Positions 1,302 to 6,894 of a stretch of DNA of 60,623 bases are shown here, one piece after another. The notes under the pieces are model-generated. The model ran no database searches. It was given only the letters and a program-made list of their open reading frames with translations, and was not told where the DNA came from. Made by a program: the position numbers and the translations under genes. Each line of letters starts with the position of its first letter. Positions within the stretch are counted from its first letter, which is position 1. Source of the stretch: an uncultured Bacilli bacterium (lineage in GTDB: Bacteria; Bacillota_I; Bacilli_A; RFN20; CAG-631); NCBI GenBank assembly GCA_947599835.1, contig CANQFQ010000009.1, forward strand, positions 1 to 60,623. The letters are read 5' to 3'.

Positions 1302-1329
1302 TTGTGATTTTAATTAGATAAAATCACAA
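1302..1329. promoter_or_regulatory. Perfect 11-bp inverted repeat, possible operator
   Basis: TTGTGATTTTA, a 6-nt spacer, then TAAAATCACAA. There is no T-tract after it, so it is not an obvious terminator. It lies about 70 bp upstream of the -35 box of the surface-protein operon, a position suited to an activator or repressor site. The binding protein is unknown. Confidence 0.5.
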
Positions 1330-1396: not shown

Positions 1397-1423
1397 TTGA
1401 CAAAGTCGGGGGGGGGTTATAAT
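1397..1423 (+). promoter_or_regulatory. Sigma-A promoter with a nine-G tract in its spacer
   Basis: A perfect -35 (TTGACA, 1397-1402) and a perfect -10 (TATAAT, 1418-1423) are separated by only 15 bp. Nine of those are consecutive G (1408-1416). The sigma-A optimum is 17 bp, so the form seen here should be weak. Adding one or two G by slipped-strand mispairing would bring the boxes to 16 or 17 bp. The run is exceptional in such AT-rich DNA and lies outside coding sequence. It drives the surface-protein operon starting at 1456. Confidence 0.85.
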
Positions 1424-1455: not shown

Positions 1456-2160
1456 ATGAAAAAAGAAACTAAAAAAAGAAGTTTAGTCGTTGCCGGAATG
1501 ATCGGCTTATTAGCATTAGTAGGAGTTACAGCTGGAAAGACATATGCAAAATATGTTGGAAACGCTGAAGCTACAGCAAGTAATGCAACCGTTGCAAAAT
1601 GGGGCTTTACAGTTACTGTACAAGAAAACAACTTATTTGGCCAATACTACAAAGGTGGCGTAGCAGTTGCAGACAATACAGATTCATCTGCAGTTGTTGT
1701 TGGTGGTTCAGGAAACGTAGTAGCACCTGGAACACACGGATCATTAAAAGTACAAATTAATGGTACAGCAGAAGTAAAAGCACAAATTAAAATTGCTTTA
1801 ACAGGCGAATTCAAAACTGTTGACTTGGTAAGCGATGCTGGCGATCATTATTATCCAGTTAAATGGTCAGTTAAAGGAATTGATGGATCAGATGTAGTTG
1901 AAGAAACAAATCCTGAAACAATCAAAGCAGAACTAAATCAAGTATTTGATTATAAACCAGGCGATGCAACAGTTGAAAAAACCATTGAAATTTCATGGGA
2001 TTGGGCATTTACTGGCAACGATGATGCAAAAGACACACTTTTAGGTCAATTAGCTGCTGGAGAAGAAGTTGAAGGTTATAAAGCAGTTGGTGCTGATGGA
2101 AGCAATTTAACTATCGGATTTGATTCATTAGCAATTTCAATTGAACAATTAAACGCATAA
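1456..2160 (+). CDS. SipW-dependent secreted fibre-like protein (CalY/TasA type)
   Basis: This 234-residue exported protein has a basic start, a hydrophobic helix (about residues 11-27) and then TYAKYVGNAEATASNA. The pattern is typical of SipW-dependent signal peptides of the TasA/CalY/camelysin group, which form biofilm matrix fibres in Bacillus. The mature part is beta-rich and acidic. Near the C-terminus it carries SWDWAFTGND then DTLLG, a motif that recurs in the next gene. The start has a good Shine-Dalgarno sequence (AAAGGGG, 9 nt before ATG). It is the first gene after the poly-G promoter and is followed by a strong hairpin, which fits a major subunit made in excess. Membership of the SipW-substrate class is well supported; fibre formation is inferred from the operon context. 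Confidence 0.8.
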   Translation: MKKETKKRSLVVAGMIGLLALVGVTAGKTYAKYVGNAEATASNATVAKWGFTVTVQENNLFGQYYKGGVAVADNTDSSAVVVGGSGNVVAPGTHGSLKVQINGTAEVKAQIKIALTGEFKTVDLVSDAGDHYYPVKWSVKGIDGSDVVEETNPETIKAELNQVFDYKPGDATVEKTIEISWDWAFTGNDDAKDTLLGQLAAGEEVEGYKAVGADGSNLTIGFDSLAISIEQLNA

Positions 2161-2244: not shown

Positions 2245-2808
2245 ATGACGGCAAAAAGAAATAAAACAGCCATTAGCATTTTAATTATTTCATCCGTGAT
2301 GTTGATTTTGGTAATTATATTAGCTGCGTTATTGACAGTAAAACCAACCAAAGATAAAACACCAGTATTCAGTATCAAAGATAATGGTGGAGATTGGGGA
2401 ACACAAGGAACAATAGCGGTATTAGATCAAACGATAAAACCAGGCAGCGAAGGAAAATATGAATTTGTAATCAAGAATGATACGAATGTAGAATTAGATT
2501 ACAATTTTAGTATTGAAGAACATTATGAAAAAGCAAACGATGAAAATGAAGAAGCGCCAAGTTTATCCTTACAATATCGGTTAAAGATGAATAACAGCTA
2601 TTTAAATAGTGAAAGCGAATGGAAAAGTGCTAGTGAATTAAATTATACAGGGCTCAGATTTTTGCAAGGAAGTCAACAATTGATGACCTTAGAATGGCGT
2701 TGGCCATTTAAAGGAAATGATGAAGAAGATACAACACTAGGAAAATATCCAGGAACATATTCTCTTGTTTTGAATGTAGAAGCGACGATCTATGAAAGCG
2801 AACAATAA
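2245..2808 (+). CDS. Membrane-anchored partner of the fibre-like protein (unclassified)
   Basis: The protein has 187 residues: one membrane segment near the N-terminus (about residues 9-31), then an extracytoplasmic domain. It lacks the Y-x-x-Y-V processing motif of its neighbours, so it may stay anchored. Its C-terminal EWRWPFKGND followed by DTTLG matches the W-x-W-x-F-x-G-N-D...D-T-x-L-G motif of the first gene, suggesting a shared fold or co-assembly as with TapA and TasA. The start at 2245 is chosen because AGGAGGGG (2229-2236) lies 8 nt before it; an upstream in-frame GTG at 2215 has no ribosome site and lies next to the hairpin. The 3' end overlaps the signal peptidase gene by 17 nt. 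An anchor or nucleator role is inferred. Confidence 0.65.
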   Translation: MTAKRNKTAISILIISSVMLILVIILAALLTVKPTKDKTPVFSIKDNGGDWGTQGTIAVLDQTIKPGSEGKYEFVIKNDTNVELDYNFSIEEHYEKANDENEEAPSLSLQYRLKMNNSYLNSESEWKSASELNYTGLRFLQGSQQLMTLEWRWPFKGNDEEDTTLGKYPGTYSLVLNVEATIYESEQ

Positions 2809-3358
2809 AAGCATCAAAAAAGGGATAAAAATAAGTATATATGTTATCTTGTATAGTTTGTTGGCCTGTATCGTCGCGTTAATTTTATCGGTATGTGTCC
2901 AAAAATATATTCAAAAGAAAGCGGTACCTACGCTATTTGGATACTCGACATTGATTGTTGAAACAGGAAGTATGAATGGAACAATTGATGAAGGAGATTT
3001 TATTGTCATCCATAAAGAGAAAACCTATCGATTAGGGGAAATCGTGACGTATATCCATAAAGGAGAAAAAGTGCCAACAACGCACCGAATCGTGAATTAT
3101 GATAGTGAAGGAAATTTTATCACCAAAGGGGATGCCAATAATGCGGTGGATTCCATCAGTGTGAAACCTAGCGAAATTATTGGAAAGGTTGTAAAGCAAT
3201 CGAGAGCCCTAGGGTTATTTGTACAATGGTTCAAATATGAAAATGGATACATTTATGGTATTGCAATGTTGGCCATTGTAGTTATCGGCGGCGTTTTATT
3301 AAAAAAACCAAACAAGGAAGAAAGTGGGGAAGAAAAAAATGAATCAGGGAACACTTAA
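2792..3358 (+). CDS. sipW: ER-type signal peptidase I, SipW family
   Basis: This 188-residue membrane protease cleaves signal peptides of TasA/CalY-type proteins. It has an N-terminal membrane segment (about 12-36), the nucleophile motif ETGSMNGT with Ser60, then PTTHRI with His98 where bacterial SPase I has Lys, then KGDANNAVD with Asp114/Asp120, and a C-terminal membrane segment (about 152-171). Serine with histidine instead of lysine defines the ER/SipW type. The gene overlaps the preceding one by 17 nt and has only a weak ribosome site, so translation is probably coupled. Likely substrates are encoded at 1456, 3973 and 4492. Confidence 0.9.
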   Translation: MKANNKSIKKGIKISIYVILYSLLACIVALILSVCVQKYIQKKAVPTLFGYSTLIVETGSMNGTIDEGDFIVIHKEKTYRLGEIVTYIHKGEKVPTTHRIVNYDSEGNFITKGDANNAVDSISVKPSEIIGKVVKQSRALGLFVQWFKYENGYIYGIAMLAIVVIGGVLLKKPNKEESGEEKNESGNT

Positions 3359-3504: not shown

Positions 3505-3610
3505 GATTTTAAGTAATGCGACTCCAAGTGAAGTAAAAGCACTAATATAAAACAAAACAATTATCTCCATCTAAAAATAAAATTTACTTGGAGTCACATT
3601 ACTTAAAATC
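3505..3610. repeat. 106-bp element bounded by 25-bp inverted repeats
   Basis: The left arm (3505-3529) and right arm (3586-3610) are reverse complements over 25 bp with one mismatch: GATTTTAAGTAATG, then C or T, then GACTCCAAGT. They enclose 56 bp of AT-rich DNA with no gene. The right arm touches the ribosome site of the next gene. It could be a MITE-like relic, a site for inversion, or an RNA hairpin that occludes translation. No flanking target duplication is clear. Confidence 0.75.
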
Positions 3611-3624
3611 AAGGGGTGAAAAAA

Positions 3625-3957
3625 ATGAGTAGAAGTAAATTAATAACGATACTATTAAGTATTTTTACAGCGATATGTCTTGTAGGCCTAATTATAGTCA
3701 TCTTCAGTTTTGTTGGGATAATGCAAATCATTTATCATCCTAAAGGATTAGAAGGATTTGCTTTAATTGCAGTGGCACCCTTATTATTGGTATCGGTAGC
3801 AGTAACTGCAGGCTTATCATTGATAAATGTTATCTGCATGATAGTAGCTTATAAAAAAGAAAAGATTCATCCAATTTTCTATAAAGTCGATTTGATAATC
3901 AATATCCTATTTATTTTACTCAGTGTCGGAACAGTTTTATTTTTAATCTTAAGGTAG
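3625..3957 (+). CDS. Small integral membrane protein, unknown function
   Basis: The protein has about 110 residues with three hydrophobic segments: roughly 5-29, 40-71 (possibly two helices) and 85-109. It has a short basic loop and no catalytic motif. I place the start at ATG 3625 because AAGGGG (3611-3616) lies 8 nt before it; the GTG at 3616 overlaps that site. It follows the inverted-repeat element directly and precedes two SipW-type secreted proteins by 15 nt, so it likely belongs to the surface-protein operon. No family recognised. Confidence 0.65.
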   Translation: MSRSKLITILLSIFTAICLVGLIIVIFSFVGIMQIIYHPKGLEGFALIAVAPLLLVSVAVTAGLSLINVICMIVAYKKEKIHPIFYKVDLIINILFILLSVGTVLFLILR

Positions 3958-3972: not shown

Positions 3973-4479
3973 ATGAACAAAAAAATTAAGAAAAAGATCT
4001 TAATTGGAGGATATTTTTTAGGTTTATTTACTCTTTTACTCTTTTGTGGAATTAGTTATTCAAGTTATGTAACTAGAGCAAATGTTGAAGCACAAAGTGC
4101 AAAGACAGCAGGAATCGTTATAAAAACCACAGCAGATGAAAATACTTCTTTTGAATTGAATGCAGATCAAACAGAAGCATCTTTTCATTTTGATGTAACC
4201 AATGGAAATGGCGGTAAGATTTCAGAAGTATCGGCATCCTATAGTATTTATTTAACCTTGCCTGAAGCGGTCATTCCTGATGGATTAACAATCACATTAG
4301 ATAGCAAAACAGGAGAACAAGATAACAATAAAATCAGTTTTATTAATGTAGGATCGTTTAAAGCCAATGAGGCTAAGACAAATTCACATACCCTTACATT
4401 TGCGATTACTGATGATTTTAGTGATAGCATCGCATGGGAAGGAATTTTATTAGATGTTCATTTAGAACAAACAATGTAA
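3973..4479 (+). CDS. SipW-dependent secreted protein, small
   Basis: This 168-residue exported protein has a basic N-terminus, one hydrophobic helix (about 10-27), then SYSSYVTRANVEAQSA. That is the same Y-x-x-Y-V feature as in the genes at 1456 and 4492, so it is a likely substrate of the SipW enzyme encoded upstream. The mature domain is predicted beta-rich and acidic and ends HLEQTM, with no sortase motif. Its size and layout resemble camelysin/CalY-group proteins, but I see no W-x-W-x-F motif. GGGGGAG before ATG is a good ribosome site. The next gene starts 12 nt downstream, consistent with co-translation. Confidence 0.7.
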   Translation: MNKKIKKKILIGGYFLGLFTLLLFCGISYSSYVTRANVEAQSAKTAGIVIKTTADENTSFELNADQTEASFHFDVTNGNGGKISEVSASYSIYLTLPEAVIPDGLTITLDSKTGEQDNNKISFINVGSFKANEAKTNSHTLTFAITDDFSDSIAWEGILLDVHLEQTM

Positions 4480-4491
4480 GGAGGATGGCTT

Positions 4492-6894
4492 ATGAAAAAT
4501 AAGGTTCATCATTCTTTTTTTAAATTGACATTTATAACGATGATTTCGTTAATTTTTTGTTTTATTTTTACGATTTCATATAGTAAATATGTACTGAATG
4601 CAAATGTGGGTACTTTAACATTAGATGTGAATGGTGAAGTCATACCTGAAAAAGCTTATTTACTACCTGGATTAGAATTTAACGCAATTATATCAGAAAA
4701 AAACCCAGCCAAAATTATTGTAGGTGATTATAGTAAATATGCAAATGAAGTTAAAGATGTGAGAACCACAGCAATAGCCGTTGATATAGATCAAAGTGGT
4801 GTTATTAATTTGTATATGGTCGATGATGTGGCCTATGTATTATCTAAAACTCAAATTTATGCAAATCAAGACTCTTCAGGACTATTTGGTATAGGAGTAG
4901 AAGCAATGTTTGCTGATGATTTATCAATTACAGATATTGTTAACTTAGTAGAAAATACAAAATTAAAGTCGATAATTTTGGAAAACTTTAATACTTCAGA
5001 AGTTGTAAGTATGACTATGATGTTTTTCAATTTTCATGTCGAAGAAATTCTAGGACTCGATAAATTAGACACACATTTAGTCGAAACGATGGAGGGAATG
5101 TTTTATTCTGCAGGAGGGGTGTTTTGGGATGATTTTCCATCTCTAAAAGGCTTTGAAGATTTAAGTAATTTTGATACGGGAAATGTTACCAGTATGTCTA
5201 ATATGTTTGTTGGCGTAAAGACGGATTATCCATTAAACTTATCTTTTTTTGATACTTCTAAAGTGGAAAATATGGAGTATATGTTTGAATATGCGAGTTT
5301 TCCATCATTAGATGTTTCGACATGGAATACAGAAAGTGTTACTACTATGGGATGCATGTTTGAAGGCATATTAGTAGAAGAATTAGATTTAAGTAGTTTT
5401 GATACGCATAATGTAACAAACATGTACGACATGTTCGGTGAGCCTTTGAGGATTTCTATTCATAATGGTGGATATATTCAATATCCTGTAACAAGTCCTT
5501 TAAAAACGGTTTATGTGGATTCAACAAAATGGTCAACTGAAAATTTATCTTCAAAAACGACTAGCGTTTTTAAAGGCTTGTATCCTTTTTTAGTAGGGGA
5601 AAAAGGGACAGCATATCAATATTCTAATCAATATTATTCTCATTATTCTCATCCAGAACTGGATACAAATAGCTGGATTAGAGCTAGAGTGGATGGTTAT
5701 GAAGGACTTCCTGGATATTTTACAGAAAAAGGCCATTCTCCTTACGTAGAAGAAGATAAAAAGGCAGTTTTAAATAAACGCTTAGACTTTTTGCCACTTG
5801 CAAGCAGAGAAAATAATAGTTATGGTGATTGGTATGGTAGCTGGAATAATAATATCGATCATATTGTTTTTGGAAAATATAGTGAAATTTTTCCTCAAAT
5901 TCAAGAAAAATTGAAAAATGATAATATTTTGTACTATAACAGTGATGATGATTTGGCGCAAAAATATATGGCCGAGGTTAATACAGAAGGAGGAGAATTT
6001 GGGAAAAATATTATTCCTATTATAACATACGATGATTTTCTTGATGAAAATAATAAATATCAAGGAACGTGTAGGACATTATATTTATTAAGTAAATATG
6101 ATACGCCTATTTATGCTCCAGAAGATTGCTCAAATCTTTTTGCATATCGAATTTTTGATGAACAATATGATGGACCTACAAGATATTATAATGACAGTCT
6201 TAGATTTTTACAAACCATTGATTTTAATCATTGTTTTGATACTTCTAATACGACAAATATGCGTGCGATGTTTGCGAATCCTTCTCTTCAAGAAATTAAA
6301 GGCCTTGATGCCTTAGATACAACACATGTCACCGATATGTCAGGAATGTTTTTAAACGCTCGTAGTCTAAAGAATTTGGATTTATCTCACTTTGATACTT
6401 CTAATGTTGAACATATGAATGCTATGTTTGGAAATATTGGCTTAGAAGAATTAGATTTAAGTAGTTTTGATACACATAAAGTACAAAGTATGGAAAATAT
6501 GTTTGGTTGGACTTGTGAAAATTTATTAGAATTCACCTATGGATTTGATTCCATCCATTATGACCGTGTTACTGTACATAATGATTATTTATTAAAAATC
6601 AAACCTTATAATCTAGATGAATTTAATATGGTTATGCTCGTGGGGGGAGAATATAGTGATACTTCTAATGCTCCTCTAAAAACCATTTATGTTAATAAAG
6701 ATAAATGGTCGACAGAATCGATTATTAATAAAGAAACAGAACAAATATGGTACGGAAGATTTAATAATTTAATGGGCGGAGCTGGAACGCAATTTAATGC
6801 AGAATTAGATTTTGATGGCGACCCATTACGAACAGCTACCTATGCTTGCATTGATAGTGATGAAACACCAGGATATTTAACAGCTAAAGAATAA
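4492..6894 (+). CDS. BspA-type repeat surface protein with SipW-like signal
   Basis: This 800-residue secreted protein starts with a hydrophobic helix (about 10-28) followed by SYSKYVLNANV, the SipW-type motif. It then has two blocks of BspA/DUF285 leucine-rich-like repeats with the signature FDTxxVxxMxxMF: block one about residues 155-310, block two about 575-670. Each block is followed by a matching cap: PLKTVYVDSTKWSTE then PGYFTEK, and PLKTIYVNKDKWSTE then PGYLTAKE, showing an internal duplication of the whole module. BspA-type repeats occur in adhesins of gut and oral bacteria. There is no LPxTG motif or C-terminal membrane helix, so attachment is unexplained and may run through the fibre proteins. 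The start has AAGGAGG 7 nt upstream. A terminator follows. Confidence 0.8.
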   Translation: MKNKVHHSFFKLTFITMISLIFCFIFTISYSKYVLNANVGTLTLDVNGEVIPEKAYLLPGLEFNAIISEKNPAKIIVGDYSKYANEVKDVRTTAIAVDIDQSGVINLYMVDDVAYVLSKTQIYANQDSSGLFGIGVEAMFADDLSITDIVNLVENTKLKSIILENFNTSEVVSMTMMFFNFHVEEILGLDKLDTHLVETMEGMFYSAGGVFWDDFPSLKGFEDLSNFDTGNVTSMSNMFVGVKTDYPLNLSFFDTSKVENMEYMFEYASFPSLDVSTWNTESVTTMGCMFEGILVEELDLSSFDTHNVTNMYDMFGEPLRISIHNGGYIQYPVTSPLKTVYVDSTKWSTENLSSKTTSVFKGLYPFLVGEKGTAYQYSNQYYSHYSHPELDTNSWIRARVDGYEGLPGYFTEKGHSPYVEEDKKAVLNKRLDFLPLASRENNSYGDWYGSWNNNIDHIVFGKYSEIFPQIQEKLKNDNILYYNSDDDLAQKYMAEVNTEGGEFGKNIIPIITYDDFLDENNKYQGTCRTLYLLSKYDTPIYAPEDCSNLFAYRIFDEQYDGPTRYYNDSLRFLQTIDFNHCFDTSNTTNMRAMFANPSLQEIKGLDALDTTHVTDMSGMFLNARSLKNLDLSHFDTSNVEHMNAMFGNIGLEELDLSSFDTHKVQSMENMFGWTCENLLEFTYGFDSIHYDRVTVHNDYLLKIKPYNLDEFNMVMLVGGEYSDTSNAPLKTIYVNKDKWSTESIINKETEQIWYGRFNNLMGGAGTQFNAELDFDGDPLRTATYACIDSDETPGYLTAKE

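Follow-up and report, generated by a model that had tools for sequence, protein, structure and literature searches.

A poly-G promoter spacer upstream of a surface operon in an uncultured Bacilli bacterium: a recurrent promoter class and candidate slipped-strand switch

Described systems and the promoter at 1397-1423

In the Neisseria genes porA, fetA and opc, a homopolymer lies between the -10 and -35 boxes and its length sets their spacing (PMC2791445). The promoter described here resembles these in having a homopolymer within the core promoter spacer and a surface-protein target (PMC2791445). It belongs, however, to a class in which the run is G only on the non-template strand (opc carries poly-C), usually adjoins a perfect -10 box and is accompanied by a perfect -35 box; the class also occupies many loci per genome, in low-GC Firmicutes, and its switching is putative. 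Bifidobacterium breve is comparable as a gut commensal with G tracts and surface structures, and G tracts in promoter spacers are mentioned for it without data, but its characterised pilus switch is a frameshift within coding sequence (PMC9187656). In the Mycoplasma vlhA/pMGA systems, which are multigene surface-antigen families, each paralogue has its own repeat-bearing promoter, although the vlhA repeats are GAA units upstream of the promoter rather than in its spacer (PMC6258824). The Bacillus TasA/TapA/SipW matrix operon likewise combines small exported proteins with an adjacent SipW-like signal peptidase, but the operon studied here has no TasA/camelysin sequence or structure match and encodes a PARCEL-repeat protein. 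The switch principle is known; how widely it occurs in gut Bacilli and Clostridia, and at how many loci per genome, is new with respect to the literature searched. Prior reports of promoter-spacer poly-G in Firmicutes were not found in the open-access literature searched, nor was poly-G control of a TasA operon.

The window, i.e. the whole stretch of DNA analysed (60.6 kb, 30% GC), is the entire contig 9 of the source genome, G000 (1.40 Mb, 27 contigs). The promoter region comprises the following features.

1302..1329, no strand: inverted repeat with perfect 11-bp arms, TTGTGATTTTA-N6-TAAAATCACAA, lying 5' of the -35 box (sequence)
1397..1402, + strand: -35 box TTGACA (read in the sequence)
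1403-1407, + strand: AAGTC, start of the spacer (read in the sequence)
1408..1416, + strand: nine-G tract in the spacer, the proposed slippage site (read in the sequence)
1417, + strand: T between the G tract and the -10 box (read in the sequence)
1418..1423, + strand: -10 box TATAAT (read in the sequence)

Direct reading confirmed the perfect boxes, the nine G and the 15-bp spacing (1403-1417) reported in an earlier note on this DNA. A homopolymer between -35 and -10 is the arrangement that marks promoter-spacer slipped-strand phase-variable loci. A SipW-type surface operon begins 33 bp downstream of the promoter (first-gene ATG at 1456). One G9 run was observed in the window against 0.03 expected from dinucleotide shuffles; the longest remaining G runs are one of six and three of five, and the longest C run is five. 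The inverted repeat at 1302-1329 is operator-like and is a possible candidate site for a regulator. No Rfam match was found anywhere in the window.

The reading favored here, with a probability of about 0.66, is that the poly-G promoter is a slipped-strand spacing switch of the surface operon and one member of a multi-locus family. The boxes would form a housekeeping-sigma promoter driving the operon, and the tract would gain or lose G through slipped-strand mispairing at replication. Each length change would move the -35 box relative to the -10 box, in both distance and helical phase, and the shifted spacing would alter RNA polymerase binding, giving heritable, reversible high or low expression among sibling cells. 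The assembled copy, at 15 bp, would be low or off, and G10-G11 tracts (16-17 bp) would give higher expression; the suggestion in the earlier note that one or two extra G improve the spacing agrees with the 17-bp peak of ordinary perfect-box promoters in the genus. We infer slippage in the source species, its effect on transcription and bet-hedging at the cell surface.

The operon downstream of the promoter

The genes of the candidate operon are as follows.

1456..2160, + strand: first gene of the operon, encoding an exported, beta-rich protein of 234 aa with signal motif YAKYVGNAEA of SipW type (ORF; low-confidence strand-rich model)
2245..2808, + strand: 187-aa exported or anchored protein, no confident family (ORF, family searches)
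2792..3358, + strand: SipW-like signal peptidase I (TIGR02228, 76.8 bits, cutoff 51.85)
3625..3957, + strand: small membrane protein, membership of the same transcript uncertain (ORF)
3973..4479, + strand: 168-aa exported protein with SipW-type motif YSSYVTRANVEA (ORF; motif by eye)
4492..6894, + strand: 800-aa DUF285/PARCEL-repeat surface protein with SipW-type motif YSKYVLNANVG (PF03382, E=2.6e-45; TIGR02167, E=5.6e-42)

Three exported operon proteins share a Y-[AS]-[KS]-Y-V motif. The signal peptidase exceeds the cutoff of the archaeal/SipW-type signal peptidase I model; with the Bacillus SipW model it scores 53.3 bits, under that model's cutoff of 190. The first operon protein gave no TasA/camelysin family match in Pfam/NCBIfam and no solved structure match in the PDB. 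A Foldseek search with its AlphaFold single-sequence model (mean pLDDT 60) returned no match below E 0.001; the model, too weak for a fold verdict, was not used. The operon had been described previously as a surface-fibre or matrix operon. The surface part of that description stands, given the SipW-like signal peptidase, the exported proteins and the PARCEL-repeat protein, and a surface operon is a reasonable reading of these genes. The fibre or matrix part is unsupported, and "fibre operon" is a working label: a TasA match was sought and none was found. No orthologue of the operon was found in the genus, and elsewhere there were weak partial matches alone.

After the signal-peptidase gene, and ahead of the genes that make up the operon's second half, lies an inverted repeat of 28 bp (93%) with 50 nt at its centre (3505-3610). 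It could form an mRNA hairpin or be a small invertible segment; its core has no second copy in the genome.

Recurrence, composition and spacing of the promoter class

The earlier note considered this promoter in isolation and missed that it is one of eight in the genome. G000 contains ten distinct tracts of at least eight G, and eight of these lie inside -35-like/-10-like spacers, of 14, 15, 15, 15, 15, 18, 18 and 19 bp; 16-17 bp is absent. The two others lie in a ribosome-binding region (L001) and in a coding DGGGST motif (L007). A reversed-pattern control for the box, G run and box arrangement gave 0 in the genome. The seven sister promoters precede genes for a Big_2 lipoprotein, an acyltransferase, a phosphotransferase/sugar-transferase operon (assigned only loosely, at a distance of 679 bp), a 1,827-aa protein, an ABC transporter and an SPFH protein; the seventh target is a gene with, next after it, one for an exported protein whose start is of SipW type. 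The targets in G000 therefore have mostly, not solely, surface or envelope functions. The exceptions, the ABC transporter and the SPFH protein, are atypical as surface antigens, which is a point against the slipped-strand switch.

Two side observations concern the same genome. The G8 tract of L001 (G000:C1:137825) lies in a gene's ribosome-binding region, and translation could depend on how long it is. A second recurrent promoter form, TTGACA(G/T)TGCTAAA-N-TATAAT, occurs at G000:C2:454, C9:56017 and C11:24947 and at G003:C3:34335 and C3:52916, and resembles a CIRCE (HrcA) half-site overlapping the -35 box.

On a wider scale, scans for the strict poly-G spacer pattern gave 8 genomes out of 279 in the order (reversed-pattern control, 0), 24 out of 395 in the class (the subset of the class scan with at least eight G, counted by hand) and at least 120 stretches of GTDB genomes. 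The GTDB matches listed include Clostridia, Bacilli, Saccharibacteria and Spirochaetes MAGs, a Streptococcus YSIRK surface-protein gene (L061) and Streptobacillus (L065). The architecture is also present in a cultured commensal, Pumilibacter muris CLA-AA-M08 (L083). By eye, a signal-peptide-like start is present in most of the ORFs downstream of these promoters. A phage origin was rejected, as viral contigs gave 0 and 5 matches, i.e. the promoters are nearly absent from them. The promoter class is real and recurrent, and on these sequences it is probably a family of phase switches for cell-surface genes.

The class scan admitted any 8-mer of G and C, and by hand count a run of at least eight G was present in 62 of 80 matches and a run of at least eight C in none. 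Slippage alone does not predict this bias, which counts against a slipped-strand switch as the full account. The principal alternative is a fixed promoter element, in which the non-template G run beside the -10 box would itself be functional and held in length, for example by supplying an extended -10 G, altering DNA shape or binding a regulator. Besides the preference for G over C, this would fit the adjacency of the run to the -10 box (47 of 62 sites in the pooled order and class lists) and, in the order, the C that usually stands just before the run. An extended -10 G or an A-like helix would be guesses at the origin of the bias. A fixed element should not, however, tolerate the 14-21 bp spacing seen across loci, and we regard it as unlikely, though it is the strongest competitor.

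Run lengths in the pooled lists are 8-11, with a floor imposed because both scans required a long run. The evidence for clustering at 8-11 comes from a scan requiring only four G, in which runs are either about four, the background, or 8-11, and lengths of 5-7 are nearly missing.

Spacing was compared with that of ordinary perfect-box promoters, which in G000 and G003 peak at 17 bp (19 of 44). In these two genomes of the genus, a 16-17 bp spacer occurs in none of eight perfect-box poly-G promoters versus 25 of 44 ordinary ones (p=0.004). Over all gathered loci, a 17-bp spacer occurs in 11 of 150 poly-G promoters versus 16 of 43, with a nominal p of 6e-6 that is descriptive only, the 150 loci being partly related and partly fetched on purpose. 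Among the database-scan matches listed, spacers of 15, 16, 17, 18, 19 and 20 bp number 11, 13, 5, 17, 24 and 9, with a dip at 17 bp; the class list lacks this dip (9, 19 and 19 at 17, 18 and 19 bp). Populations may mostly sit away from the optimum, or spacers with a G tract may have a different one. The broadest form of the switch reading is tentative, and we hold it at somewhat less than even odds: that an undescribed class of G-only, -10-adjoining slip-switch promoters is widespread in gut Bacilli and Clostridia, with up to eight or more per genome, for parallel envelope bet-hedging, most copies being off 17 bp and most cells low or off at each locus.

Tract-length differences, mismatch repair and remaining explanations

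Related loci differ in tract length in several cases. L234 and L235, from two species and 96% identical over 1,731 bp, have G8 and G6; other related pairs, at 84-87% identity, differ by one; and in one genome (G038:C17) two identical promoter flanks carry G10 and G11. Such differences between close copies, including G9/G8, are not expected of a fixed element. In contrast, G590 and G529 both have G10 at 89% identity, and sister-species orthologues with 71% identical DNA retain the tract, one pair as G8/G8 with 18 bp and another as G8/G9 with 14 bp in both. Retention at 71% identity suggests selection for the tract. It is also what a fixed element would give, as is the 14-bp spacing held despite G8/G9; that spacing and the shared G10 argue against a switch. 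Recurrence, clustering at 8-11, spacer scatter, envelope targets, length differences between related loci, the tract retained in the sister species and the G601 array together support the slipped-strand switch as a reading of the sequences.

The pace of any change is a separate matter. G tracts differ in length in 10 of 26 related pairs, many of them from one array (G601), and A/T runs of at least six in 36 of 156; there is no clear excess and the difference is not significant, so the proposal that G tracts change faster than A/T runs was rejected. MutS1 is intact, which counts against the switch, and all poly-G genomes examined for it have it. No full-length MutS1 match was obtained in six of the genomes sampled (order f4, genera g12, g13, g22, g30, g41, g42), all from genera with zero poly-G promoters, and loss of mismatch repair was rejected as the cause of the tracts. 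Any switching would thus occur in a mismatch-repair-proficient background.

These observations bear on slow tuning, in which slippage is real but selection across many generations sets the lengths, as alleles of graded expression, with no fast switch. The presence of MutS1, the A/T-like frequency of length change and the near-uniform tracts of the G601 array would suit it. However, contingency loci are usually recognised by just such features as these, namely long, pure G tracts at many loci despite 30% GC, concentrated on envelope genes and tandem paralogues, and slow tuning is considered improbable, more so than a fixed element. Chance or assembly artefact is very improbable and, for the class as a whole, is refuted by near-zero controls, recurrence in independently assembled genomes and isolates and restriction to promoter spacers, although homopolymers are error-prone in sequencing and a given length, that of this copy included, may be wrong by one base.

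If the slipped-strand switch reading is true, many uncultured gut bacteria vary their surfaces via several cheap promoter switches per genome, and such switches escape scans for DNA inversions. With at least eight such promoters in the genome, the envelope products shown by a population could come in many combinations. Tract lengths are readable from existing metagenome reads, so this surface heterogeneity is testable without culture. The strict bias for G over C further poses a biophysical question, i.e. the role of a non-template G run beside the -10 box for RNA polymerase.

Anatomically, the G601 array (G601:C6:8343-27066; L214, L215) comes closest to multigene surface-variation systems and is the counterpart of the Mycoplasma arrangement: it is a set of tandem secreted paralogues (MKNLKMFAI...) with one poly-G promoter per gene. 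On this one contig, six tracts are G9 and one is G8. A gene and promoter similar to those of the array are found in a rabbit-gut MAG (L105).
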